Origin: Rhodobacterales bacterium | GTDB taxonomy: Bacteria; Pseudomonadota; Alphaproteobacteria; Rhodobacterales; Rhodobacteraceae | DNA length: 56,082 nucleotides | Direction of reading: 5' to 3' | Assembly (NCBI GenBank): GCA_017303485.1 | Contig: JAFLCY010000005.1 | Location: forward strand, 12,779-68,860 | In this document: one piece after another, positions 10,538-40,232 of the stretch | Numbering within the stretch: position 1 is the first letter of the stretch | Layout: every line of letters starts with the position of its first letter | Program-made: the position numbers and the translations under genes | The notes under the pieces: model-generated | Told to the model about the DNA's origin: nothing | Databases searched by the model: none | Seen by the model: the letters and a program-made list of their open reading frames with translations, nothing else

Positions 10538-11929
10538 ATGCCCTCTAGCCTTCAGTTTGACGTGATATCGCCGATCGACGGTTCGACCTATTGCACCCGG
10601 AGCTACGCCGCGCCCGACGAGGTCGCCAGCAAGATCTCCCTGGCTCAGCGCGCCTTGCCTGGGTGGCGCGCAATGCCTCTGGCCGAACGACTTGGTGTTC
10701 TCAGCCGTTTTGCGGCCGAGATGTCGGCGCGCTCCGCCGAGTTGGCGCGGGAAGTTGCCTGGCAGATGGGACGACCGCTGGAGCAGGCGGATGAAACGCC
10801 GCGGCTGGGCAAGGTTATCGAGGGCATTGGCGGCTTTGCCGAACAGGTTCTCGGCGACGAGTCATTCCCGAGCGACGCGACAGTGGCGCGTTACGTTCGG
10901 CATGTGGCGAATGGCGTACAGTTGTCGATCTGCGCATGGAACTATCCCACTGCAATGATTGGCAATCTCGTCGCGGCCCCTCTCGCGGCGGGCAACGTCG
11001 TGATCTTCAAGCATTCGCCTCAAACGCCCACAGTCGCTGAGATTGCAGAAGAATGCTTCCGCGCCGCAGGCGGGCCCGAAGGCGTTTTCCAGTCGCTGCA
11101 TCTCAGCCATCCCGATGCAGAGGCCCTGATCCGCAAGGGAACTTTCCGCGCGGTCAACTTTATCGGATCGACCGCTGGCGGGCGTCAGGTACATGCGGCA
11201 GCAGGTGGCACAATGACCAATGTCCATCTGGAGCTTGGCGGCAAGGATGCAGCCTATCTGAGGGCCGACGCAGATCTGGATGACGCGATACCGCTGATTG
11301 CCGAAGGCAGTTTCTCGAACTCCGGCCAGTCCTGCTGTTCGGTCGAGCGTATCTATGTCCAAAGGCCCATCTATGAGGAGTTTCTTGAGCGGCTGGTGGC
11401 GGAAACCCGAAAGTGGAGCGTCGGAAACCCGCTTGAGCAGGGGCATGCAATCGGCCCGGTCGTGCGGCAACGTTCTGCCGATTTCATTCGCCAGCAAGTC
11501 GCGGACGCGGTGAGCGCCGGCGCGCGGCTGCACCTGGATATCAACCGCTGCGAAGCTGTTGCGGACGACAACGCCTATGTCGCCCCCAATGTTCTGAGCG
11601 GCTTGAATCACGGCATGTTGATCATGAGGGAAGAGCTTTTCGGACCGATTGCCTGTGTGCAGCCGGTCGAGGATGACAGTGAGGCGCTCGCCCTGATGAA
11701 CGACAGTGACTATGGGCTTACCGGATCGGTCTGGACCCGCGATATCGAGACGGGAAAGCGTCTGCTTGACAAGGTCGAGGCGGGAACCGTCTACCTCAAC
11801 CGTTGTGACCATGCCGACCTCTACCTTCCCTGGGGAGGGATGAAGAATTCCGGACTGGGCCACAACAACGGGGTCGAGGGGCTTCGCCAGGCGGCGACGC
11901 TGAAATCCTTCCACATACGCAATATCTGA
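10538..11929 (+). CDS. NAD(P)-dependent aldehyde dehydrogenase
   Basis: ALDH of about 463 residues. The oxyanion/active-site segments are SICAWNYPTAMIGN near residue 130, the general-base block HLELGGKDAAYL near 230, and the nucleophile cysteine in GQSCCSVERIYV near 265. The chosen ATG at 10538 has GGAG nine bases upstream; an ATG at 10499 would add 13 residues with no ribosome binding site. It is followed after 18 bases by the amidohydrolase gene. In context it would oxidise the aldehyde made by the ADH or SDR (a PuuC-like role), but the exact substrate cannot be read from sequence. Confidence 0.92.
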   Translation: MPSSLQFDVISPIDGSTYCTRSYAAPDEVASKISLAQRALPGWRAMPLAERLGVLSRFAAEMSARSAELAREVAWQMGRPLEQADETPRLGKVIEGIGGFAEQVLGDESFPSDATVARYVRHVANGVQLSICAWNYPTAMIGNLVAAPLAAGNVVIFKHSPQTPTVAEIAEECFRAAGGPEGVFQSLHLSHPDAEALIRKGTFRAVNFIGSTAGGRQVHAAAGGTMTNVHLELGGKDAAYLRADADLDDAIPLIAEGSFSNSGQSCCSVERIYVQRPIYEEFLERLVAETRKWSVGNPLEQGHAIGPVVRQRSADFIRQQVADAVSAGARLHLDINRCEAVADDNAYVAPNVLSGLNHGMLIMREELFGPIACVQPVEDDSEALALMNDSDYGLTGSVWTRDIETGKRLLDKVEAGTVYLNRCDHADLYLPWGGMKNSGLGHNNGVEGLRQAATLKSFHIRNI

Positions 11930-11947
11930 GCGGAGGAGGAGTTTACC

Positions 11948-12703
11948 GTGCCCATAACAAGGGACGACGTCGCACGATACGCTGACGAGGCGGTGACCGT
12001 GATCGAAGGCGACGGTAGCGTTCTTCTCGTCTGCGAGCATGCCGGTTTCTCAGTGCCCGGAGGGTGGGGTACTCTTGGGCTCGATCCGTGCTATTTCACC
12101 ACCCATTTCGCCGGTGACATCGGCGCGGCGGATCTCACTGAGGGGCTGGCGCGCGCGCTGGGTCTCCCGGCAGTCCTTGCGACCTATTCGCGGATGTTTC
12201 TCGACTACAACCGGTTTGAGACGCACTGGGAATACTGCCGTCCAGACCTTGGCGGCATCCCTGTTCCCGGCAACCTCAAACTGACCGCCGAAGAAAAGGC
12301 ACTGCGGACCGAGATTGCCGCAGGGCCAGTCGACCGTGCGATTGAGGCACAGGCGGAAAGGGTGCGGGCCTTGATCTCGATTCACACCTTCACGCCGGTC
12401 TTCCACGGCGTCGACCGCGAAGTCGACGTCGGTCTGGTCTGGCCATCCAGTTCAGAGTTCGGCGCGATGGTCTCGTCGGTCATGCATCGGGTCGGTGTGG
12501 CGCATGGAGTGAGGGTTGCCGACAATGTGCCCTACGCCTGGACGGACACCGGTGCCCGAACACTCAACGTCCACGGTACGGCGCGCGGGAGAAAGGCCGT
12601 ATGCATCGAGGTCAACAATGCCCTGCTGCTCGACCCGGATACCCGGCGCGTGCAGGCGGCTTTCCTGGCCGAAGCGTTGGCTGAGGTGGCGAAAGCACTT
12701 TGA
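11948..12703 (+). CDS. N-formylglutamate amidohydrolase-family protein
   Basis: 251 residues of the FGase family (PF05013). The conserved opening is LVCEHAGFSVP, followed by HFAGDIGAADLTEGLARALG, YSRMFLDYNR and the histidine-bearing ISIHTFTPVF block. The start is GTG at 11948 with a strong GGAGGAGG about 8 bases upstream. Known members hydrolyse N-formyl-L-glutamate. In this operon, behind an aldehyde dehydrogenase and opposite a gamma-glutamyl ligase, it is a candidate for the hydrolase that releases glutamate at the end of the pathway, replacing PuuD. That role is inference; the ordinary activity remains possible. Confidence 0.88.
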   Translation: MPITRDDVARYADEAVTVIEGDGSVLLVCEHAGFSVPGGWGTLGLDPCYFTTHFAGDIGAADLTEGLARALGLPAVLATYSRMFLDYNRFETHWEYCRPDLGGIPVPGNLKLTAEEKALRTEIAAGPVDRAIEAQAERVRALISIHTFTPVFHGVDREVDVGLVWPSSSEFGAMVSSVMHRVGVAHGVRVADNVPYAWTDTGARTLNVHGTARGRKAVCIEVNNALLLDPDTRRVQAAFLAEALAEVAKAL

Positions 12704-30267: not shown

Positions 30268-30286
30268 GAGCAAAGATCCTTCGCTC
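30268..30286 (-). terminator. Weak hairpin at the end of the ribose/MocE operon
   Basis: GAGCAAAG and CTTCGCTC form an eight-base stem with one mismatch around ATC, overlapping the stop codon of the Rieske gene. On the minus strand it is followed within about 15 bases by an A/T-rich stretch rather than a clean T run, so function as a terminator is only possible. Confidence 0.25.
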
Positions 30287-30617
30287 ACTCCAGAAGCAAC
30301 TGAACCTCGTCGCCGACAAGACGCACCGGATAGGTGCGCAGGTCCACGCAGGCAGGAAGTTTGCGCGATTCCCCAGTGCGGTAGTCGAAGGTTCCGAAAT
30401 GCCGCGGACATTCGATGATCCCGCCATCGACCAGCCCACCGGCAAGGTGAATCTTCTCGTGCGAGCAATGGCCATCCATGGCGAAAAACTCGCCTTCGGC
30501 CGAGCGGATGACGACAAAGGTCCGGTTGCCGAAGTCGAAGCGGATCACATCCTCAAGCGACACATCATCGACCTTGCAGGCGGTGACCCATTGGCCGGAC
30601 TTGGTGGCGGTAGTCAT
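30285..30617 (-). CDS. MocE-type Rieske [2Fe-2S] ferredoxin
   Basis: About 110 residues. The Rieske cluster motif is CSH, 16 residues, then CPRH (CxH-x16-CxxH), and the surroundings DVIRFDFGNRTFVVIRSAEG and LPACVDLRTYPVRL follow the MocE group first named from rhizopine catabolism. The ATG at 30617 has AAAGGAA upstream; the longer frame adds unrelated residues. Last gene of the ribose-type operon, 25 bases after a membrane di-iron hydroxylase, so it probably passes electrons to that enzyme. No ferredoxin reductase gene is in the window; a housekeeping one may serve. Confidence 0.85.
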   Translation of the reverse strand: MTTATKSGQWVTACKVDDVSLEDVIRFDFGNRTFVVIRSAEGEFFAMDGHCSHEKIHLAGGLVDGGIIECPRHFGTFDYRTGESRKLPACVDLRTYPVRLVGDEVQLLLE

Positions 30618-30642
30618 GGGGCGTTCCTTTCGTACGATCTTC

Positions 30643-31632
30643 TCAGCGGACCAGTTTCTTGGCCCTGATCCGGCGGTACATGGCTTCATCGGCTTCTGCC
30701 GAGCCGTCATGGGCGGTGCCGAACCATTCATCCAGCGGGATGCGCCGTTCGCCGTAGTTCACCTCGAAATACTTGTGGTGCAGGTAGTGGTAGAAGTTGT
30801 CGGTGTTGATCGCCGAGTCGTCCGAGGTGACGATCCGGTCGAACCCGACATGTGATTTCGCGGGCGACAGGCCGGCGTGCATCAGCTGGAACATCGCGTG
30901 CAGGGGATGCAACGGCACGATGAAGTGGATCAGCACGCCCGAGAAGTAGAACAGATGCTCCAGCGTCGACATCGACATGCCGGACCAGGGCCCCGGGTTG
31001 ACGTTCTTGTGGTGGACGCGGTGGATCAGGTGATACAGCGGCCCTACGTGGATCAGCCGATGGATCAGGTAGAAGTGCAACTCGCGCCAGGCCGGCACTA
31101 GCAGCAGCGCGATCACGAACCAGACCGGATGGGCCGCAAACTCGAGGAACGGCAGGTAGTTGTTAGCGTAAAGCCACCAGGTCACGCATTCGATAGCCGT
31201 CCAGACCGGTACGCCGCTACAGAATGTCCAGAAGATGTTTTCGGCGTTCTGGCTGCCGAACAGGAAGTCCGGATTGTCGCTGTCAGGCCAGCGGGCGTTG
31301 TACTTGAAGTTCGTCTCCTGATGCCTTCGGATGTAGAGGATCAGGTGGAATCCGCCGTAGAAAAGCAGCGTCCATCCCACGTTGCGCAGAAGGATCAGCA
31401 GGATCCAGTCGATCTGGAAGGTCTGCATTCGGGCCAGGTCCGGCGTCAGAAACAGCCAGGACACCAGCGCGACGGTGAAATAGGAAAAGTTCCACGGCCA
31501 CACATAGCCTGGCAGCCATTTCAGGAACTTCTTCGGCTGCGCGGGCCAGACGAAGATCGGCGCACGTTGCGGCTTCTTGTTCGGCGTCCAGTGTCCGCGC
31601 TTGTCGCGGCTGCCAAAGTCAGTGTCTTTCAT
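30643..31632 (-). CDS. Membrane di-iron fatty-acid hydroxylase/sterol desaturase-superfamily oxygenase
   Basis: About 329 residues with four or more membrane segments (for example ILLILLRNVGWTLLFYGGF and VWFVIALLLVPAW). The histidine boxes are HRLIH, HRVHH and, near the C-terminus, HYLHH, as in PF04116 enzymes that hydroxylate or desaturate using O2 and a di-iron centre. These need an electron donor, supplied here by the adjacent Rieske protein. ATG 31632 was chosen; an ATG at 31644 is possible. A lipid oxidase inside a sugar importer operon is unusual, and oxidative removal of an O-alkyl group from the imported compound is one hypothesis. Confidence 0.85.
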   Translation of the reverse strand: MKDTDFGSRDKRGHWTPNKKPQRAPIFVWPAQPKKFLKWLPGYVWPWNFSYFTVALVSWLFLTPDLARMQTFQIDWILLILLRNVGWTLLFYGGFHLILYIRRHQETNFKYNARWPDSDNPDFLFGSQNAENIFWTFCSGVPVWTAIECVTWWLYANNYLPFLEFAAHPVWFVIALLLVPAWRELHFYLIHRLIHVGPLYHLIHRVHHKNVNPGPWSGMSMSTLEHLFYFSGVLIHFIVPLHPLHAMFQLMHAGLSPAKSHVGFDRIVTSDDSAINTDNFYHYLHHKYFEVNYGERRIPLDEWFGTAHDGSAEADEAMYRRIRAKKLVR

Positions 31633-31690
31633 CTTTTGTCTCATCGTCTGCAAGAGAACGGGCCGTCCGCAGGGCGGGCAACCGGTTCGA

Positions 31691-32512
31691 TCAATGGTCA
31701 AGGCGCCGGGCGAACTCTTCCAGAAGGGCGTCCGGCACGGTGGCGACCTCGTTGGCCGCCGGGAAGGATTTGGTCAACACATCGGCCCGGAAGGCCTGCA
31801 GCGACCGGATGCGTTCGGCGTCGATCTCGCGGTAAAGCCGCGCCAGATCGCCGTATTTGCGGGCATGACGCGGGGTCGCCGCGCCCTCGCCGCAGATGTC
31901 GTTGGTGAACAGGAAGGCGACCTCTGCCGCCGGACCTGACCCCAGGGACACGGTCACCAATCCGCTGCGACGGCTGAGTTCCGCCATCAGCGGGGCAGGT
32001 ACCAGTTCGGCCTCGACGGCGAAGGCCCCGGCCTCCTCCAGCCGGCGGAAGCGGTGATACAGCTCTACCGCCTCGTCCGCCGTCTTGCCCACCGCACGGA
32101 CCGACCCGACCCAGGTCGACTTGCGCGGCACGAACCCCAGGTGCCCCATCACGGGAATGTCCTCGGCCGCCAGCAGAGAGACGATCGACAGCCGCCGTGC
32201 CGTGATCACCGCATCCGCGCCATCGGTCAGCGCCTTGAACGCGGTCCGCAGGATCTCGTCGTCGGTGATGGCCTCGGCAAACCCAAGGGCCGCGGTCACG
32301 AAAAGCCGCGACGACCCTTTGCGCACCTCGGCAACGTTCGCGGCACGGCAGACCGCCAGTTCGATCCCTGCCGCTTCGGCCGCTGCCGCCTCGACCGCGC
32401 TGTTGCAGGTGACCTGCGCAAAGGCGCCGTGCCGTCCCTTCGCCTGTTTCAGCGAAGCGACGGTCGCCAGCCTCTGGCTGTCCCGAACGGCCCAATCGAA
32501 GATGCGTGCCAC
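31691..32512 (-). CDS. Divergent ketopantoate hydroxymethyltransferase (PanB)-like protein
   Basis: About 273 residues. The clearest match to PanB is IPVMGHLGFVPRKS, then GKTADEAVELYHR and EEAGAFAVEAELVP, and the C-terminal ARKYGDLARLYREID block also aligns. The PanB positions that hold Mg2+ and substrate are changed: VGDS reads VCRA, the ADLPF aspartate is replaced (TAALGF), and the KLEGG block reads ITARRL. The histidine in MGHLG and the glutamate in AELVP remain. Ketopantoate synthesis is therefore unlikely. The start is GTG 32512 with AAGGG nine bases upstream, five bases after the RbsD stop. Its role is unknown; C1 transfer or an aldol/lyase step fits the fold. Confidence 0.75.
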   Translation of the reverse strand: MARIFDWAVRDSQRLATVASLKQAKGRHGAFAQVTCNSAVEAAAAEAAGIELAVCRAANVAEVRKGSSRLFVTAALGFAEAITDDEILRTAFKALTDGADAVITARRLSIVSLLAAEDIPVMGHLGFVPRKSTWVGSVRAVGKTADEAVELYHRFRRLEEAGAFAVEAELVPAPLMAELSRRSGLVTVSLGSGPAAEVAFLFTNDICGEGAATPRHARKYGDLARLYREIDAERIRSLQAFRADVLTKSFPAANEVATVPDALLEEFARRLDH

Positions 32513-32517
32513 GATGG

Positions 32518-32982
32518 TCAGCCCTTCGTCATCTTGCGGGCGTATTCGGGCGGCGCGACGGTCCCGGGTTTCGAGAACCACTGCGGCACGTCCACCCCGG
32601 AATACAGCAGGATGTTGCCCCAGGGATCAAAGGCCCCGGTCCGCACGATGACCTTGGCCTTGGCCGCCATCTCGCCCAGGATCGTGGCATGCGGGACCAT
32701 CGCATGGTCGCTGTCGGCGAACAGCGCGCGGACGGTCTGCAGAAGTATCGGGTTGTGATCGGGCAACTCGTTCGCATAGGCCACCTTTTCGGCCACGAGA
32801 TCATCGGCGATAAGCGACAGGACGGTCTTCAGGTCCGGCAAGTCCGGCATCAGCGCCAGGTCGATCCGCCAGCTTGTGCGCGGGATCGGAAAGCCCGCAT
32901 CGCAGACGATCATCAGGTCGCCATGGCCCATTTCGGCAATCGCGTGGCTGAGTTCGGCATTCAACAGACGGCCGCGTTTCAT
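32518..32982 (-). CDS. rbsD: RbsD/FucU-family sugar pyranase (mutarotase)
   Basis: 154 residues. The N-terminus MKRGRLLNAELSHAIAEMGH carries the catalytic histidine of RbsD/FucU, followed by DLMIVCDAGFPIP, and the C-terminal AFDPWGNILLYSGVDV matches the family. RbsD interconverts beta-pyranose and beta-furanose forms so that the kinase can act. It sits 31 bases after the ribokinase-family gene. Slightly longer than the usual 139-140 residues, with a C-terminal extension. The sugar may be ribose or a derivative of it. Confidence 0.9.
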   Translation of the reverse strand: MKRGRLLNAELSHAIAEMGHGDLMIVCDAGFPIPRTSWRIDLALMPDLPDLKTVLSLIADDLVAEKVAYANELPDHNPILLQTVRALFADSDHAMVPHATILGEMAAKAKVIVRTGAFDPWGNILLYSGVDVPQWFSKPGTVAPPEYARKMTKG

Positions 32983-33013
32983 TGGCTTGCTCCCCTATGT
33001 CCAATCCAGGTGG

Positions 33014-33901
33014 TCATTTCAGCATCTCCATCAGCTCGGCCCGGCGCGGCATCGACGGGATCACCCCCAGCCGCGTGCAGGCATGTGCCCCCGCGGCAAC
33101 GCCCCAGCGCACGGCCTCGACCAGGGGCTTGCCCTCGCCCAGGGCGACGGCAAAGGCCGCGTTGAAGGAATCCCCCGCGCCTGTCGTATCGACGACCTCG
33201 ACCGCAGGGGCCGGGACCACCAGGTCATGCGTGTCGTCCAGGATCAGCGCGCCCTCGCCGCCCATGGTGACGACGACCGACCCCACCCCGCGCCGCCGCA
33301 GTTCGACCGCCAAGTCATGCAGGCCCAGAAGCAGTCGCAATTCACTTTCGTTCGGCGTCAGATAGTCGACATGTTTCAACAGGCCCTCCGGCAGCGCGGT
33401 GGCCGGGGCCGGGTTCAGGATTGTCCGGGCGCCTGCGGCACGGCCCAGCTCCATCGCCCGCGCGGCGGCTGCGACGGGTATCTCCAGCACCGACATCACC
33501 ACATCACTTCCGGCGATCCGGTCCCGGGCGGTATCGACCAGCGCCGGGTCCATCAACGTGTTCGCGCCCATGTCGAGGATGATGAAATTGTCCCCGGCCT
33601 GGTTCAGGATGATGAAGCCGACGCCGGTCGCCCTTTCAGACGTCCGCATCACATGCGCCATGTCGACGCCCTCGGCCGCGTAAAGCCGGGTGGCGACGGT
33701 GGCCAGGTCATCCTCGCCCAGGCAGGTGACCAGGGCCGACTGCGCCCCAAGGCGTGCGACACCGACCGCCTGGTTCGATCCCTTGCCACCCGGGCCAAGG
33801 TCGAAGTCAGACCCGAACAGGGTCTGACCGAAGATCGGGATGACAGGCGAGCGGATCGTCAGACCCACGGCAAAGCTGCCGACAACGGTGATCTTGGTCA
33901 T
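33014..33901 (-). CDS. rbsK: Ribokinase-family (PfkB) carbohydrate kinase
   Basis: 295 residues. PfkB signature 1 is present as GPGGKGSNQAVGVARLG near residue 38, and signature 2 as VDTTGAGDSFNAAFAVALG near residue 235, with the catalytic aspartate in TTGAGD. NPAPATALPEGLLKHVDYLTPNESE is typical of ribokinases. It would phosphorylate the sugar delivered by the importer. The gene follows the ATPase after 24 bases and precedes RbsD. Ribose is the default substrate, but the unusual downstream genes leave room for another pentose. Confidence 0.92.
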   Translation of the reverse strand: MTKITVVGSFAVGLTIRSPVIPIFGQTLFGSDFDLGPGGKGSNQAVGVARLGAQSALVTCLGEDDLATVATRLYAAEGVDMAHVMRTSERATGVGFIILNQAGDNFIILDMGANTLMDPALVDTARDRIAGSDVVMSVLEIPVAAAARAMELGRAAGARTILNPAPATALPEGLLKHVDYLTPNESELRLLLGLHDLAVELRRRGVGSVVVTMGGEGALILDDTHDLVVPAPAVEVVDTTGAGDSFNAAFAVALGEGKPLVEAVRWGVAAGAHACTRLGVIPSMPRRAELMEMLK

Positions 33902-33925
33902 GGGCGTCCCCCCTTCGCTGTGCTG

Positions 33926-35449
33926 TCAGGCTGCATTGCGGCCCACCTTCCGGGTTGCCAGCGACATGACCGCTTCCTCGGTCACCGCATCGCCGCTCAG
34001 TTCGCCCGCGATCACCTGGTTGGCCATCACGATGACCCGCCCGGAGTGCAGAACAATTTCCGGCAGTTCGGACGACACCATTAGGATGGCCAGCCCATCC
34101 GCCGCCAGCGACTTCAGGATCGCGTAGATTTCCGCCTTAGCGCCCACATCGATGCCCCGCGTCGGCTCGTGCAGGATCAGCAGCTTAGGCTGCGAGACAA
34201 GGCCGCGCGCCAGGATGATCTTCTGCTGGTTGCCGCCGCTCAGCGTGGCGATCCGCTGGCCGAAGTCCGACACCTTGGCCTGCAGGTCGGCGACATAGCG
34301 CTCCGCCGTCTCGGCGATCCTGCGGCGCTGCAACAGCCCGCCACGGCTAAAGCGCCGCAGCGTCGACGACACGATGTTTTCGGCCACGCTCATTGTCAGC
34401 AGGGCCCCGCCCGCGCGACGGTCGGCCGGTATCAGTGCCATGCCCGCCGCAATGGAATGGGCTGGTCGCGCACCCATCAGCCGGATGCCCCCGATCTCGA
34501 TCGTGCCTGACCTTGGGATCATCCCGAATATCGCGTCCGCCAGCAGGTCCTTGCCGCTGTCGGGCAGACCGGCAACGCCGACGATCTCGCCCGCGCCAAT
34601 CGTGAAGCGGATGCCGTCGATCCAGCCCGGCACCGTCAGGTCCGTGACCGAAAGCACCGGGCGAGCGGCAGCGCGCGGACCGGCCAGCCGCGAATACTGG
34701 TCCGCCGTATCCACATCGCGACCCACCATTTGCGCCACAAGATGGGCCGAGGTCACATCCGGCGTGTTGTCGATCGTGGTCAGCAGACGTCCGTCACGCA
34801 TCACGCTGATCCGGTCCGCCAGCGCGCGCACTTCGTCTAGGTGGTGTGAGACATACAGCACCGTCACCCCGCGGTCGCGCAGGGCGCGGACAATCTCGAA
34901 CAACCGTTCGCTTTCATTGGGCGACAAGGCCGAGTTCGGCTCGTCCAGCACCAGAAGCCGCGCATCCTGGGAAATCGCCCGAGCGATCTCGACCATCTGT
35001 TTCTGCGCGACAGTCAAGGTAGACACCTTGTCGTGGATGCCGATGTCGGTCAGCCCCAATCTCTCAAGCGCCTCTCGGGCGGCCTCCGATGCGCGGCGGC
35101 GGTCCAGTAGCGACAGGGCGCGTCGATTGGCAAAGCGCCCCATCAACACGTTTTCGCCCACGGTCAGGTTGTCGCACAGCGACAGTTCCTGAAACACAAC
35201 GCGAATTCCCAAGCCCTGACTGACCAGCGCCGAGCCAATGGTGACCGGGCGTCCGTCCACCAGGATCGTGCCGCGGTTCGGCTGAATCTCACCGGCCAGC
35301 ACGTTCATCATGGTGCTTTTGCCAGCCCCGTTCTCGCCGATCACGGCATGAACTTCGCCAGGCCGAAAGCTGACCGAGACGCAATCCATGGCGACGACAC
35401 CCGGATAGGCCTTGGTGATGTCCTTCAGTTCCAAAAGGGGCAGCGACAT
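33926..35449 (-). CDS. rbsA: Ribose-type ABC importer ATP-binding protein (RbsA)
   Basis: Tandem ATPase of about 507 residues (CUT2 class). The first half has Walker A GENGAGKSTMMNVLAG and a degenerate signature region TVAQKQMVEIARA; the second half has the degenerate Walker A GLPDSGKDLLA and the signature LSGGNQQKIILARG. ATG 35449 begins MSLPLLELKDITKAYPG; the upstream part of the frame is not related. It lies 64 bases after the binding protein. The sequence identifies the class; ribose itself is inferred from RbsD and the kinase. Confidence 0.92.
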   Translation of the reverse strand: MSLPLLELKDITKAYPGVVAMDCVSVSFRPGEVHAVIGENGAGKSTMMNVLAGEIQPNRGTILVDGRPVTIGSALVSQGLGIRVVFQELSLCDNLTVGENVLMGRFANRRALSLLDRRRASEAAREALERLGLTDIGIHDKVSTLTVAQKQMVEIARAISQDARLLVLDEPNSALSPNESERLFEIVRALRDRGVTVLYVSHHLDEVRALADRISVMRDGRLLTTIDNTPDVTSAHLVAQMVGRDVDTADQYSRLAGPRAAARPVLSVTDLTVPGWIDGIRFTIGAGEIVGVAGLPDSGKDLLADAIFGMIPRSGTIEIGGIRLMGARPAHSIAAGMALIPADRRAGGALLTMSVAENIVSSTLRRFSRGGLLQRRRIAETAERYVADLQAKVSDFGQRIATLSGGNQQKIILARGLVSQPKLLILHEPTRGIDVGAKAEIYAILKSLAADGLAILMVSSELPEIVLHSGRVIVMANQVIAGELSGDAVTEEAVMSLATRKVGRNAA

Positions 35450-35513
35450 GGTCTTTGGGTCCGGTCCGGAGTTCGGGATCGGCGCCCTGGGACAACCCCG
35501 GGGCGCCGAAAGG

Positions 35514-36485
35514 TCACTTCGCGATTTCAGCAATATTTTCAGGCGTATAGATGCCAACCCCGGTGTCCAGGTTGTCGATCGGCGTGCCGCGCAGGAAGGT
35601 GGCCAGCAGGTTCACCGCCTCATAGCCCTGACGCTCCGGCGCCTGGTCGATGGTCGCCTGAATCACGCCGTCCGACACAAGGTCGACCGTCTGGTCCAGA
35701 AGGTCAAAGCCGACGATCTTGACGGCATCCTTCTTCTCGTTCCGCGCAACCCACTCGCCCGCCGCCGGGGTCGAGCAGCACTCCAGCGACAGGATGCCGG
35801 TGATGCCCGGGTCGGCCAGCATGGCATTCTCGATGGCCGCGTAGATTTCCTGCGGATCGGTGCCGGTGTTCAGCGTCCGGACGACCTCGATCTCGGGGAA
35901 GGCGGCCAACCCCTCGCGAGCGCCCTTCTCGCGGTCCAGCGACCATTGCGCCGAGGCGTCCAGGGTCGTGATCATGACACGGCCCTTGCCGCCCAGCACG
36001 TCGCCCATGAGCTTGCCGGCCTCACGGCCGGACTGCACCAGATCCTGACCGGCAAAGACCAGGCGTTTGCTGTCCGGGTTGTCGGTGTTGTAGGTGATCA
36101 CAGGAATCCCGGCTTCGATCAGCTGGTTGATGATCGGCGCCAGCGCATCCGTGCTGACCGACGATATGGCCAAGCCGTCCATGTCGTTCATCAGGGTTTC
36201 GATCTCGGAAATCTGCGCATCGGCATCGGCACCGACCGGCCCGATGAACTTTGCGGTGACGCCCTCGATCTCGTCGCCCTTCAGGACGCCGGCTTTGATC
36301 GATGGCGCGAACTCGTTCGCGGTGTCGTGGAACGACACATAGATGTTCAGCTCGCCCCCGGCGTCCACCTTTTCCTTGATCCTGGGTGCCAGGGCAAAGC
36401 CATCGACGCTCACCGGCTCGGCCATGGCCGCTGTCGACAGCATCAGTCCGGCAAACAGCGCAAGCGCACTTGTATGTAGTTTCAT
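35514..36485 (-). CDS. rbsB: Ribose-type ABC importer periplasmic binding protein (RbsB-like)
   Basis: About 323 residues, Peripla_BP_4 family. A Sec signal peptide (KLHTSALALFAGLMLSTAAM, cleavage near AMA) precedes a mature domain with NIYVSFHDTANEF, PVITYNTDNPDSKRLVFAG, QDLVQSGREAGKLMGD and DPGITGILS. ATG 36485 has GGGAGGAAAAG just upstream. The early GELNIYVSFHDTANEF differs from canonical ribose-binding proteins, and CUT2 proteins for inositol, rhamnose or autoinducer look similar, so the ligand is open. Confidence 0.88.
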   Translation of the reverse strand: MKLHTSALALFAGLMLSTAAMAEPVSVDGFALAPRIKEKVDAGGELNIYVSFHDTANEFAPSIKAGVLKGDEIEGVTAKFIGPVGADADAQISEIETLMNDMDGLAISSVSTDALAPIINQLIEAGIPVITYNTDNPDSKRLVFAGQDLVQSGREAGKLMGDVLGGKGRVMITTLDASAQWSLDREKGAREGLAAFPEIEVVRTLNTGTDPQEIYAAIENAMLADPGITGILSLECCSTPAAGEWVARNEKKDAVKIVGFDLLDQTVDLVSDGVIQATIDQAPERQGYEAVNLLATFLRGTPIDNLDTGVGIYTPENIAEIAK

Positions 36486-36530
36486 CTTTTCCTCCCTCTC
36501 CATTGATATCCAGCCCAAACGACGATGGGG

Positions 36531-37538
36531 TCAGCCCCGGGCAGAGCGGATGCTCCACCGGTCGATTGCGACGGCGACGATGATGACCAGGCCGATCATC
36601 ACTTCCTGGGTGAACGGCGACACGCCGCTCAGCACTAGACCATTGCGAAGAACGCCGATGATGAGGACGCCCAGCACCGTGCCAAGAATGCTGCCGCTAC
36701 CCCCGGCCAGCGACGCACCTCCGACGACGACAGCTGCGATCACGTCCAGTTCCAGACCAATCCCGGTGCGGCCCGCCTGGCCGCTGGGAAGGAAGGCCAT
36801 GGACAGAATGCCCGCCAGCGCGGCCAGCATTCCCATCACCACGAAGGCCCAGATCTTCACCGCATTCACGTTGATTCCGGAGACTCTGGCCGCCTTCGGG
36901 CTGCCGCCCACGGCAAAGATCCGGAACCCGAAACTTGTCCGCGACAGCAGCACCCAGCCAAGGACCGCCACCAGCACGAAGAACACCAGCTGCATCGGCA
37001 CCAGATTGGCCAGCTTGCCCTGCCCCAGCGCCAGGAATGTCTGCAGCACGGCGGGGTCGGCCCCGTTCCGCACGTTCACTGTCACCGGCTCTCCGTTCGT
37101 CATCAGAAGCGCGATGCCGCGAATGACCGACATCATCCCCAGCGTCGCGATCAGGGACGGCAGCCGCCCGTGGGTCGAGAGAAGGCCGTTGACCAGCCCC
37201 ACGATCAGCCCCAGCGCCAGACCGGCGGCAAGCGCCGGCATCAGCGGCCAGCCCGAAGTGATCAGAATCCCTGCTCCCAGACCGCTCAGCGCGTAGGTGG
37301 AGCCAATCGACAAGTCGATCTCGCCGGAAATCAGGACAAAGGTCATCCCGATCGCCATGATCCCCAGCAGCGATACTTGACGCCCCACGTTCAACAGATT
37401 GCCCAGCGTCAGGAAGCTTTCTGTGGTCACCGCCAGAAAGGCGCACATCACCACCAAGGCCAGGAACACTCCGGTTTCCCGCGCGCCCAGCAACCGCGAC
37501 CGCAGAGGCACGCCCTGCGCGCGCGACGATTGAACCAT
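36531..37538 (-). CDS. rbsC: Ribose-type ABC importer permease (RbsC-like)
   Basis: About 335 residues, BPD_transp_2 family, with eight to ten hydrophobic segments. Characteristic CUT2 sequences are ISGEIDLSIGSTYALSGLGA, AVGGSPKAARVSGINV and VVVGGASLAGGSGSILGTVLG. The start is uncertain: ATG 37538 gives MVQSSRAQG, and a GTG at 37571 would add eleven residues; neither has a strong ribosome binding site. First gene of the operon and divergent from an AraC regulator, which is unusual since RbsC normally follows RbsA. Confidence 0.9.
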   Translation of the reverse strand: MVQSSRAQGVPLRSRLLGARETGVFLALVVMCAFLAVTTESFLTLGNLLNVGRQVSLLGIMAIGMTFVLISGEIDLSIGSTYALSGLGAGILITSGWPLMPALAAGLALGLIVGLVNGLLSTHGRLPSLIATLGMMSVIRGIALLMTNGEPVTVNVRNGADPAVLQTFLALGQGKLANLVPMQLVFFVLVAVLGWVLLSRTSFGFRIFAVGGSPKAARVSGINVNAVKIWAFVVMGMLAALAGILSMAFLPSGQAGRTGIGLELDVIAAVVVGGASLAGGSGSILGTVLGVLIIGVLRNGLVLSGVSPFTQEVMIGLVIIVAVAIDRWSIRSARG

Positions 37539-37723: not shown

Positions 37724-38608
37724 ATGCCGATTTGCATGTACAAAACGCGCATGGTCGAAAAATCCCATATCGCCGTTTCGCGGATCAGCCTCTATCACCT
37801 GCCCGATGCTGCATCGCGGTATAACTTCCTGACGGTTCTACGCGCCGGATGGATCGACGCAGCACCCGGCGGCGGCATCGCGCGGCAGTCCAGCCCGGGC
37901 GACGATGTGCTGTATTGCCTGTCCGGCCGGGGCGAGGTCACATTCGGCGACGAAACCGTCCGGCTTGCGCCCGGGCAACTGGTATGGATCCCGGGCGACG
38001 GCCCCCATTCACACAGAGCCGATCAATCCGACCCATGGTCCGTCATGTGGTTCCGAATCCAGGGCCCGGACCTGCCAATTCTTCGCTTGCGCGTCTTTGG
38101 CCAGGCGGGGCCCCGCGTCACCCTGGCCAGCGGAGCCGAGATGATCGCCTGGTTCCAGCGACTCTTCACCGTGCTGGGCGAGGCGCGTCCCGGCATCGAC
38201 TTGCGACTGAACACCGTCCTCGCTCAGTTCCTCGAACTATTGACCGGCCCGGCGAACTCGCAAACGCGGACCATCCTGCCCGCTGCACTGGATCGACTGA
38301 TGCGCAAGATGATGGAATCGCCCGAGGCGCGCTGGACGGCAGAGGATATGGCTAATGTCGCGCGGCTCAGCCATTCGCAGTTTCGACGCTTGTTTCGTCT
38401 GCACATCGGCGTCACCCCGCGCAACTTTCTCCGCAATCAGCGCCTCGTCCGCGCGCAGCGTCTGATGCAGGAAAGTGACCTCAGCCTGCAGCAGATCGCC
38501 GAGTCCTGCGGCTTTTTCGACGCTTTCCATTTCAGCCGCGAATTCAAGAAGGTGGTCGGCCAATCGCCCTCGGCATGGGGAGAGACTGAATGGGGCACGC
38601 GGCGATGA
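37724..38608 (+). CDS. AraC-family transcriptional regulator
   Basis: 294 residues from ATG 37724; an ATG at 37751 is an alternative. The N-terminal cupin-type sugar-sensing domain has DDVLYCLSGRGEVTFGDETV and LAPGQLVWIPGDGPHSHRA. The C-terminal double HTH has ARLSHSQFRRLFRLHIGVTP and QIAESCGFFDAFHFSREFKK, the classical AraC signature. Divergent from the ribose-type operon, it is the likely activator of that operon in response to the imported sugar. Confidence 0.92.
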   Translation: MPICMYKTRMVEKSHIAVSRISLYHLPDAASRYNFLTVLRAGWIDAAPGGGIARQSSPGDDVLYCLSGRGEVTFGDETVRLAPGQLVWIPGDGPHSHRADQSDPWSVMWFRIQGPDLPILRLRVFGQAGPRVTLASGAEMIAWFQRLFTVLGEARPGIDLRLNTVLAQFLELLTGPANSQTRTILPAALDRLMRKMMESPEARWTAEDMANVARLSHSQFRRLFRLHIGVTPRNFLRNQRLVRAQRLMQESDLSLQQIAESCGFFDAFHFSREFKKVVGQSPSAWGETEWGTRR

Positions 38609-38682: not shown

Positions 38683-40232
38683 CTAATATTTGCGGGCCGT
38701 TTCGACCTTTGCGGCAGAACTGGCCGCCATCATCATTGCAGCCTTTTCGCCGATCATCACCGCCGGGGCATGCGTGTTGCCCGAGACAATCGTCGGCATG
38801 ATCGAGCAGTCGACGACACGCAATCCCTCCAGGCCGCGCATCCGAAGTGCAGGATCCACGACCGCGTCCGGATCGACGCCCATTCGGGCCGTGCCGACCG
38901 GGTGAAAGATCGTCGTTGCGATGTCGCCGGCCGCTTTCGCGAGAGCTTCGGGCGATGAAACCTCTCGCCCGGGTTTGAACTCTTCGGGCCGAAAGGCGGC
39001 CATGGCGCCGGTTTGCATCAGACGCCTCGCTGCAGTGATCGATTCCGCGGCGACCTGTCTGTCGCCCGGAGTCGACAGGTAGTTCGGCGCGATTTCTGGA
39101 TGGTGTGAAGGGTCGGACGAGACGATGCGCACATGGCCCCGCGATTCCGGGCGCAGGTTGCAGACCGAGACAGTGATCGCCGGAAAGCTGTGCAGCGGCT
39201 GCCCGAAGGCATCCAGCGAAAGGGGCTGGACGTGAAACTCGATGTTCGGAGTTTCGAACCTTGGATCGGAACGCATGAAGATGCCAAGCTGGCTGGGCGC
39301 CATCGACATCGGGCCGCTGCGCCTTGCGGCGTATTCCAGCGCTATCCGTGCCTTGCCGATCAGCGAGGCCTGCATCTCATTCAGCGTTCGTGCCCCGGTG
39401 ACGCGAAACGAGGTCCGGATTTGCAGATGGTCCTGCAAATTTTCGCCGACGCCTGGAGCATCTTGCAGGACAGCGATCCCATGCCGCTGCAGCAGCGCCC
39501 CCGGTCCGATGCCTGACAGTTGCAGGATCTGCGGCGATCCGATCGCCCCAGCAGACAAGATCAGCTCGCCCCCTGCACGGACATGGGAAGCCTTGCCGCG
39601 AAGGCGAAGATCGAGCCCGGTCGCGCGGCGCCCGGTGAACCGGATGCGTTCGGCCTGGGCATGGGTGAGGATCGTCAGGTTCCGGCGGCGTCGCACCGGA
39701 TTGATGAAGGCGCGCACCGCGTTGAAGCGGAATCCCGCCTTCCGGTTGACCTCGAAATAGGCGGACCCAAGATTGTCGCCGGTGTTGAGGTCCTCGACCT
39801 TCGGAACGCCAAGCTCTTCGGCAGCATCGCGCGCAGCGTCGAGGATCGGCCAGGACAGGCGCTGACGCTCGACCCGAAGTTCACCGCCCTGGCCGTGAAA
39901 GGCTCCGTTCAGGGCATGGTGGTCCTCGCTTTTGCGGAACAGGAGCAGCCTCCCATCACCCTGCCGCGCGGATAGGCCAGGGACCGGCCATTCAGCCCCG
40001 GCTTCCAACAGGAGTACCCGCTTGGACGGATCGGCGCTCAGCCGGTTGCCAGGACGCATCCAGACGAACCCGCGCCGACGATCACATAGTCATACTCGCC
40101 CAGGTCCGTGCGGCTGCGCCACAGATTGAAAAGCGCCGCGCTCTGCGTCACTGCGCTGGCCCCGGCCAGTGCGCCCATCTCCGCGGCGACAACGGCGAGA
40201 AGGCCCACATCCGTACGGCCCTCTTTGCTCAA
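38683..40232 (-). pseudogene. Decayed GMC oxidoreductase (choline dehydrogenase-like)
   Basis: Two frames together make a GMC flavoprotein. The N-terminal piece (40232 downwards) reads EYDYVIVGAGSSGCVLA, the FAD Rossmann motif, then is shifted by a one-base deletion near 40055 and continues as NRLSADPSKRVLLLEAG. The sequence then jumps to FRKSEDHHALNGAFHGQGG, lacking about 70-85 residues that normally hold the GMC signature region. The rest is complete: SAGAIGSPQILQLSGIGP, HPVGTARMG and the catalytic C-terminal SIMPTIVSGNTHAP. The frameshift plus internal deletion make activity very unlikely. The segment before the Rossmann motif is not recognised. Confidence 0.8.

Follow-up and report, generated by a model that had tools for sequence, protein, structure and literature searches.

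The window considered here is a stretch of 56,082 nucleotides from a Rhodobacterales bacterium (assembly GCA_017303485.1, contig JAFLCY010000005.1, positions 12,779 to 68,860). It contains a ribose-type operon in which the transporter genes RbsC, RbsB and RbsA, a ribokinase-like kinase and RbsD are followed by a PanB-like protein, a PF04116 membrane oxygenase and a MocE-type Rieske ferredoxin. We favour, with modest confidence, the interpretation that this operon serves the catabolism of a ribose with a methyl group on or close to O2, the likeliest substrate being 2-O-methyl-D-ribose from the 2'-O-methylated nucleosides of RNA, and that the PanB-like protein loads the formaldehyde onto tetrahydrofolate (THF). 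More tentatively, the PanB-like family as a whole could take formaldehyde, or the hydroxymethyl group of a hemiacetal, from oxidative demethylation to THF, and the operon in the window would then be its 2-O-methylribose application. The individual pieces of the operon are of known kinds. In searches of the open-licence literature we found neither the gene combination nor the substrate proposed for an rbs-type operon nor the role proposed for the PanB-like family.

The interpretation is best supported by an exchange of oxygenases between related operons. A PanB-like gene and a ribokinase-like gene lie within 500 bp of each other on the same strand at 11 loci, hereafter kinase-linked; L063 (33% identical kinase, 923 bp away) and L130 (27% identical, 2.7 kb away on the opposite strand) were omitted from this set. 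The PF04116-MocE pair is present at four of the 11, namely the window, two loci of Bradyrhizobium (L026 and L137) and one of Mesorhizobium (L027), while six others (L052, L053, L055, L064, L157 and L159) have a PhyH oxygenase and no PF04116. In these six operons PhyH is the first gene, located between AraC and RbsC and co-oriented with the operon, and its PF05721 domain was confirmed in every case (121.6-134.3 bits). The contig of the remaining locus, L054, breaks off a short way upstream of the kinase, so that the oxygenase cannot be judged there. The PanB-like protein of the window nests among those of the PhyH-type operons (99 in the tree, which was built with FastTree only and in which row L204_PanB, a wrong-strand open reading frame (ORF), is to be disregarded), but its oxygenase shares 74% identity with the one in a Bradyrhizobium cassette. 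An unrelated oxygenase therefore seems to have taken the place of the PhyH protein in the operon of the window. We regard this swap as the best single piece of evidence that the pathway requires an oxygenation and that the two kinds of enzyme serve the same purpose.

In Rhodobacterales as well as in rhizobia, the PanB-like gene comes immediately after that of the kinase or RbsD, and RbsD is found at eight of the 11 kinase-linked loci. The initial annotation had treated conservation of the three extra genes with the rbs genes as decisive. This conservation is found for the PanB-like gene and fails for the PF04116-MocE pair, as six rbs operons have PhyH in first position instead and the read stretches of the plasmid loci L026, L137 and L027 contain neither rbs transporter genes nor RbsD. 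A deoC gene adjoins three of the PhyH operons: it follows the PanB-like gene in L052 and lies on the far side of AraC in L053/L158 and L159, and each of these DeoC proteins scores above the curated cut-off. As published 2'-O-methylnucleoside hydrolase genes also cluster with deoC-like and ribokinase genes (PMC6278475), we count this neighbour in favour of our interpretation.

Kinase and RbsD both display changes in the sugar site. The kinase of the window stays under the ribokinase cut-off (TIGR02152, 277.9 vs 299.65), and in each of the 11 operon kinases Ala, Gly and Gly occupy the positions of Asn14, Asp16 and Ala98 of Escherichia coli ribokinase, while Gly42, Lys43, Asn46, Ile100 and Ile110 are kept. 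Two ribose contact residues of a ribokinase, N14 and D16, are hence absent from the operon kinases. Another kinase of the same genome (L195) scores above the cut-off (311.9) and has Asn, Asp and Ala at the three positions; a kinase of M. plurifarium (L199) has Val, Asp and Ala. The available portions of PMC9604405 list Asn14, Asp16, Gly42, Lys43, Asn46, Glu143 and Asp255 as ribose contacts of the E. coli enzyme and report that A98G gains an order of magnitude in activity towards arabinose, the C2 epimer. For PsuK, excerpts of PMC9247573 describe that Asn14 and Asp16 hold the 2'-OH, and Asp16, Gly41 and Asn45 the 3'-OH. Changes of Asn14 in E. coli selected on 2-deoxyribose, described below, likewise concern this part of the pocket. 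Smaller residues at three larger or polar positions around C2 would suit a 2-O-methyl group more than the absence of a hydroxyl, both being possible. The altered C2 pocket suggests that the kinase sees a sugar that is still methylated, so that demethylation would probably come after phosphorylation. The RbsD of the window exceeds the D-ribose pyranase cut-off (NF008761, 114.8 vs 93). One of its segments reads RTGA[FY]DPWGN in all eight operon RbsDs and RxGExxPYxN in the three RbsD-type PDB sequences that served as the only controls; other candidates from operon-bearing genomes looked FucU-like by eye and were not used.

The PanB-like protein is predicted to have a PanB fold (structure comparison with VIA-align), scores far under the curated panB model (TIGR00222, 69.3 vs a cut-off of 207.55), and retains the conserved GH-G segment and the presumed catalytic Glu and His. 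We aligned 44 PanB-like rows with eight true PanBs; of the nine true-PanB stretches, L207 was dropped by the VGDS filter, and L204 entered the alignment with its correct ORF. Two loop columns after VGDS are gapped in 44 of 44 PanB-like rows and a third in 38, the Lys of KxEGG is replaced in all 44, and of the following EGG the E is gapped in 44 rows and the two G in 44 and 42. An Asp is aligned at that of VGDS in 8 of 44 rows, adjoining the deletion. Taking the VGDS loop and KxEGG to be the keto-acid- and metal-binding elements of PanB, we interpret this alignment as a PanB fold without most of the keto-acid/metal site. Plasmid records annotate PanB-like genes as 3-methyl-2-oxobutanoate hydroxymethyltransferase. 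Besides its five PanB-like genes (97-131 bits), the genome of the window encodes a single true PanB (360 bits); on account of this separate enzyme and the lost metal site we reject a role of the PanB-like gene in making pantothenate.

The oxygenase of the window matches PF04116 (FA_hydroxylase, 58.7 bits, cut-off 31), and an HX3H box and two HX2HH boxes, presumably the histidine boxes of PF04116 membrane di-iron oxygenases, were found by eye in its translation. Its ferredoxin is a near miss for the MocE family (TIGR02377, 134.9 vs a cut-off of 136.15) and has the CxH and CxxH pairs. Five clear MocE-type ferredoxins are encoded in this genome, on the same five contigs as the PanB-like genes, with one remote match elsewhere. 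All five PanB-like genes pair with a MocE-type ferredoxin gene at gaps of 243-2394 bp, compared with at most two pairs in 200,000 trials of random placement of five and five genes. This pairing shows a functional unit, though duplication of a ready-made unit would inflate the statistic. The oxygenase is of the PF04116 kind in three of the five cassettes (C50, C101 and C202; in C101 it lies 6.2 kb off the PanB-like gene) and of the PF00487 kind in C1 and C7. Four of these cassettes, in C50, C7, C1 and C101 (L032, L033, L034 and L035), are thus further combinations of PanB-like, MocE and di-iron oxygenase genes in the same genome; at least those of C1 and C101 include IolG-type dehydrogenases and sugar transporters and are probably for O-methyl inositols or similar compounds. 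Another PF04116 gene (C35) adjoins a sugar transporter and a dehydrogenase, without a PanB-like gene.

Alphaproteobacteria commonly have PanB-like genes together with those of a membrane oxygenase and a MocE-type ferredoxin. Our survey covers 122 loci (127 PanB-like loci minus five with identical PanB-like segments), among which are many near relatives, so that the counts are not independent. Neighbouring oxygenases of three kinds, PF00487-type, PF04116 and PhyH (PF05721), were scored from tblastn matches on either strand that lie no more than 6 kb away, reach E 1e-5 and span 45% or more of the query. One was found at 87 loci: PF00487-type only at 49, PF04116 only at 22, PhyH only at 11, both di-iron types at four, and PF00487-type with PhyH at one. 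By this distance rule the C101 cassette mentioned above is scored as having none. The weakest calls are those of PhyH in L083, on 24% identity alone (E 9e-7), and of PF04116 in L119 (24%); that of PF04116 in L115 (28%) was confirmed by Pfam. Gene calls in GC-rich loci are crude. No oxygenase of the three kinds occurred at any of 20 true-PanB loci, mostly from the window's own genus, where one weak Rieske match (L218, 25-30%) and one weak match to a flavin adenine dinucleotide (FAD) reductase (L221, 28-31%, 3 kb) were recorded. On the basis of these controls and the random placements we reject a chance pairing of PanB-like genes with MocE or oxygenase genes.

Several survey loci have neighbourhoods of their own. 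Tandem PanB-like genes adjoin PhyH oxygenase genes in L068, L069 and L084, all titled uncultured Alphaproteobacteria. In L136, of which L167 contains a 92% identical stretch, a gene annotated as inositol oxygenase family directly precedes the genes of the PF04116 oxygenase and the PanB-like protein, an arrangement suggestive of methylated inositols. On a plasmid of Mesorhizobium amorphae (L029/L065) PanB-like, PF04116, 2Fe-2S and FAD genes lie beside ProX, mandelate-racemase-type and proline-racemase genes, which suggests N-demethylation of betaines as a further possible use of the cassette. The PF04116-MocE cassette of S. meliloti pSymA (L031) includes unannotated FAD reductase homology, split over 11409-12023 and 12011-12598.

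One-carbon enzymes are found among the neighbours as well. PurU, at two loci together with FolD, follows the PanB-like gene. It lies within 89 bp of it at eight of the 122 loci, and L214, additional to these eight, has the single run FAdes-MocE-reductase-PanB-like-PurU-FolD. A glutathione formaldehyde dehydrogenase gene lies near two PF04116-MocE-reductase sets without a PanB-like gene (L132 and L135). The suggestion of the initial annotation, oxidative demethylation with the PanB-like protein handling the one-carbon fragment, is partly upheld by these neighbours and by the swap of non-homologous oxygenases: the comparison backs it well, whereas substrate and chemistry are what we infer from it.

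In the pathway that we propose, RbsCBA would import the methylated sugar, RbsD would bring it into the furanose form, and the kinase with its emptied C2 pocket would make 2-O-methylribose 5-phosphate from it. Supplied with electrons by the MocE ferredoxin and by a reductase whose gene lies elsewhere in the genome, the di-iron oxygenase would hydroxylate the methyl group, yielding ribose 5-phosphate and formaldehyde. The PanB-like protein would pass the formaldehyde, or the hydroxymethyl group of the hemiacetal, to THF as methylene-THF; in bacteria, to our knowledge, formaldehyde joins THF without a dedicated enzyme. Alternatively, demethylation may precede phosphorylation or act on another intermediate. 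Substrate, order of steps and THF as acceptor are proposals built upon the genes observed, their order and conservation, the residue changes and the predicted fold.

Parallels to this pathway exist in several known systems. The rhizopine moc system, which we take to work by oxidative O-demethylation and for which Bahar et al. 1998 reportedly presented a mocDEF model with a ferredoxin oxygenase complex, likewise has a MocE-type ferredoxin and a membrane oxygenase beside sugar or inositol uptake genes. The window differs from it in its PF04116 oxygenase, its ribose-type sugar genes and its PanB-like gene, and no MocF-type reductase completes the moc set of oxygenase, MocE and reductase in the operon. 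Many survey loci resemble moc more closely, with a PF00487-MocE-reductase arrangement plus the PanB-like gene. The available text of PMC10107442 gives mocDEF as involved in rhizopine catabolism, citing the ferredoxin oxygenase complex model, and describes transcriptional units. Several members of the PhyH family, of bacterial, plant, fungal and animal origin, strip the 2'-O-methyl group of nucleosides as formaldehyde (accessible part of PMC12709175, on FJS and PHYHD1). In six related operons a PF05721 oxygenase substitutes for the di-iron oxygenase, and formaldehyde is a by-product of the published reaction; unlike these cases, the window has no PhyH gene, the operon PhyH is not especially close to PHYHD1, and the published substrates are nucleosides. 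In the RK9 cluster the gene of a DeoC-like aldolase, which did not replace E. coli DeoC, adjoins that of a 2'-O-methyluridine hydrolase, and related clusters contain ribokinase genes (excerpts of PMC6278475). A DeoC-like aldolase and a ribokinase near genes for 2'-O-methylnucleoside breakdown are thus shared, whereas the hydrolase is absent near the operons studied here, and the same excerpts mention neither an oxygenase nor a PanB-like gene for RK9. With PanB (PDB 1m3u and others) the PanB-like protein shares the fold, the GH-G segment and the presumed catalytic Glu and His; it lacks the post-VGDS loop, the Lys and the EGG segment, and true PanB is separate in the same genome. The rbs operons of E. 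coli and Bacillus subtilis likewise have transporter, kinase and RbsD, in contrast to which the window has the changed kinase C2 pocket and RbsD segment, AraC in place of an RbsR-type regulator, and appended oxygenase and one-carbon genes.

However, we also have to consider a number of observations that weigh against the proposed pathway. No nucleoside hydrolase was found near the operon; PF01156 occurs in six of nine genomes or records, never nearby. The operon lacks a ferredoxin reductase, and nothing in the window matches the FAD-reductase references, whereas the cassettes of L026, L027 and L137 do include an FAD-dependent oxidoreductase. The operon PhyH scores higher against leucine hydroxylase (79.8 bits) than against PHYHD1 (45.6 bits), which as 2opw ranks tenth among its PDB matches. 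According to the parts of PMC12709175 at hand, the published PhyH demethylases take nucleosides and nucleotides are no substrates, with which demethylation after phosphorylation sits badly; the inactivity of human PHYH described there means that membership in the PhyH family proves no activity. The kinase changes are also compatible with 2-deoxyribose, and the Arabidopsis ribokinase is not much hurt by losing this Asn alone (quoted in the available portions of PMC9604405). Loss of the metal site leaves the folate chemistry of the PanB-like protein hypothetical, and the PurU and formaldehyde dehydrogenase neighbours occur at loci with other substrates, not beside the operon of the window. No oxygenase of the three kinds lies within 6 kb at 35 of the 122 loci, some of them truncated by contig ends. 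Eight loci without a scored oxygenase, L056-L063, mostly titled Actinomycetota, fall inside the kinase-linked clade, and the function of PanB-like proteins may hence be broader. Among these eight, L057 has a 2-oxoglutarate-Fe(II) oxygenase of another family (PF03171) downstream, L063 has the PfkB kinase gene at 923 bp, and the others gave no matches with the reference set used. L097, L102, L104, L109, L117, L118 and L127 likewise belong to PanB-like clades without the three oxygenase kinds within 6 kb; the titles of all these loci name mostly Actinomycetota, besides Verrucomicrobia, Planctomycetes and others.

The alternatives give up different parts of the pathway. An ordinary ribose operon to which three downstream genes were added by accident would account for the ribose-type transporter, the kinase and RbsD, yet it is highly improbable given that the PanB-like gene keeps its place in both Rhodobacterales and rhizobia, and we reject it on the C2 pocket changed in 11 of 11 kinases, the segment changed in eight of eight RbsDs, and the L195 kinase elsewhere in the genome, which does pass as a ribokinase. 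We consider it unlikely that the same chemistry is directed at a different methylated or C2-modified pentose, e.g., 3-O-methylribose, 2-O-methylxylose or a methyl riboside. The cassette is indeed modular and substrate-neutral, with IolG-type dehydrogenases within 6 kb at 14 of the 122 loci and sugar transporters at others, and the binding protein has no equivalog match; but RbsD passes the ribose pyranase cut-off, and the kinase is altered around C2 while the 3-OH contact residues (E. coli G42 and N46) are kept.

Considerably less probable still is 2-deoxyribose or a C2-branched pentose as the substrate, in which case the kinase would be a deoxyribokinase, DeoC, where present, would cleave its product, and the oxygenase would carry out another reaction. 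It might, for example, hydroxylate a C-methyl branch, the resulting hydroxymethyl group being removed by the PanB-like protein through retro-aldol cleavage. PanB makes and breaks a C-hydroxymethyl bond, which favours such a branched sugar, but the metal site for this aldol chemistry is largely gone in all 44 rows. For 2-deoxyribose speak the DeoC genes adjoining three PhyH operons and the selection of E. coli on this sugar, where RbsK Asn14 was additionally changed in 15 of 16 colonies picked, from a library that already carried RbsK N20Y and an rbsR insertion (accessible sections of PMC6452873). This sugar, however, requires neither an oxygenase nor a one-carbon enzyme; the kinase-linked loci have an oxygenase in 10 of 10 judgeable cases and are, all 11, defined by a PanB-like gene, and the operon of the window is without DeoC. 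It is also possible, though we think it rather unlikely, that the PanB-like protein is no THF enzyme and represents another member of the barrel superfamily, such as a hydrolase, a lyase or an aldehyde scavenger acting on a sugar fragment; the lost metal site and the 35 loci without a nearby oxygenase would agree with this.

If the catabolism of 2-O-methylribose proposed here is correct, the operon would cover the whole sugar pathway for a modification that is very common in RNA. With import, kinase and demethylase in one operon, it would supply the sugar half of the pathway and a substrate for assays. An enzyme that loads formaldehyde onto THF beside demethylases would be a new principle of one-carbon capture, which many alphaproteobacteria would share and which probably matters for methyl-inositols and rhizopines too. 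The common annotation of PanB-like genes as 3-methyl-2-oxobutanoate hydroxymethyltransferase would then have to be corrected.

The layout given by the initial annotation, eight co-directional genes with short gaps and divergent from AraC, is confirmed in place and order (Table 1). All eight genes lie on the minus strand, from 37538 down to 30285, and with the preferred starts the gaps along the operon are 45, 64, 24, 31, 5, 46 and 25 bp. The PanB-like gene begins with a GTG 5 bp past the RbsD stop, the oxygenase gene 46 bp after the PanB-like gene (58 bp with the alternative start), and the ferredoxin gene 25 bp further on. The best NCBIfam match of the RbsB-like protein is the rhizopine-binding protein at 63.7 bits, far from the cut-off of 420 and thus no equivalog; its top PDB match is the sugar-binding protein 3c6q, with ribose-binding proteins scoring far lower.

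Table 1. Genes of the ribose-type operon and its divergent regulator (positions in the window)
Feature	Position	Strand	Domain matches and remarks
AraC-family regulator, divergent	37724..38608	+	HTH_18, AraC_binding and cupin domains
RbsC-type permease	36531..37538	-	PF02653 (BPD_transp_2); best NCBIfam is ribose permease, 234.9 bits, under cut-off 398
RbsB-like periplasmic sugar-binding protein	35514..36485	-	PF13407 (Peripla_BP_4)
RbsA-type ATPase	33926..35449	-	PF00005 (ABC_tran), two matched stretches; best NCBIfam are sugar-transporter ATPases, under cut-offs
Ribokinase-like PfkB kinase, altered C2 pocket (E. coli N14A, D16G, A98G)	33014..33901	-	PfkB
RbsD-type ribose pyranase, changed sugar-site segment RTGAFDPWGN	32518..32982	-	RbsD_FucU
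PanB-like protein, proposed THF-dependent one-carbon acceptor	31691..32512	-	Pantoate_transf, 111.5 bits
PF04116 membrane di-iron oxygenase, proposed O-demethylase	30643..31644	-	start ATG 31644 or 31632
MocE-type Rieske ferredoxin, proposed electron donor to the oxygenase	30285..30617	-	PF00355, 69.7 bits

A promoter of their own for the last three genes would have spoken against their membership in the operon. Between 29500 and 38700 promoter-like sites (1 vs a mean of 1.4) and terminator-like sites (5 vs a mean of 5.6) do not exceed the level of shuffled sequence, and thus neither indicate that the last three genes form a unit of their own nor prove a single transcript. A divergent AraC gene is also annotated at L026, L027 and L137 and was detected at L052, L053, L055, L064, L157 and L159 (tblastn, 40-53%). 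Downstream of AraC in the window, a GMC oxidoreductase ORF (38683-40059) appears shortened or disrupted in its N-terminal FAD-binding part: NCBIfam choline dehydrogenase models are matched only from profile position 119-126, and the Pfam GMC_oxred_N match begins at 56 of 218.

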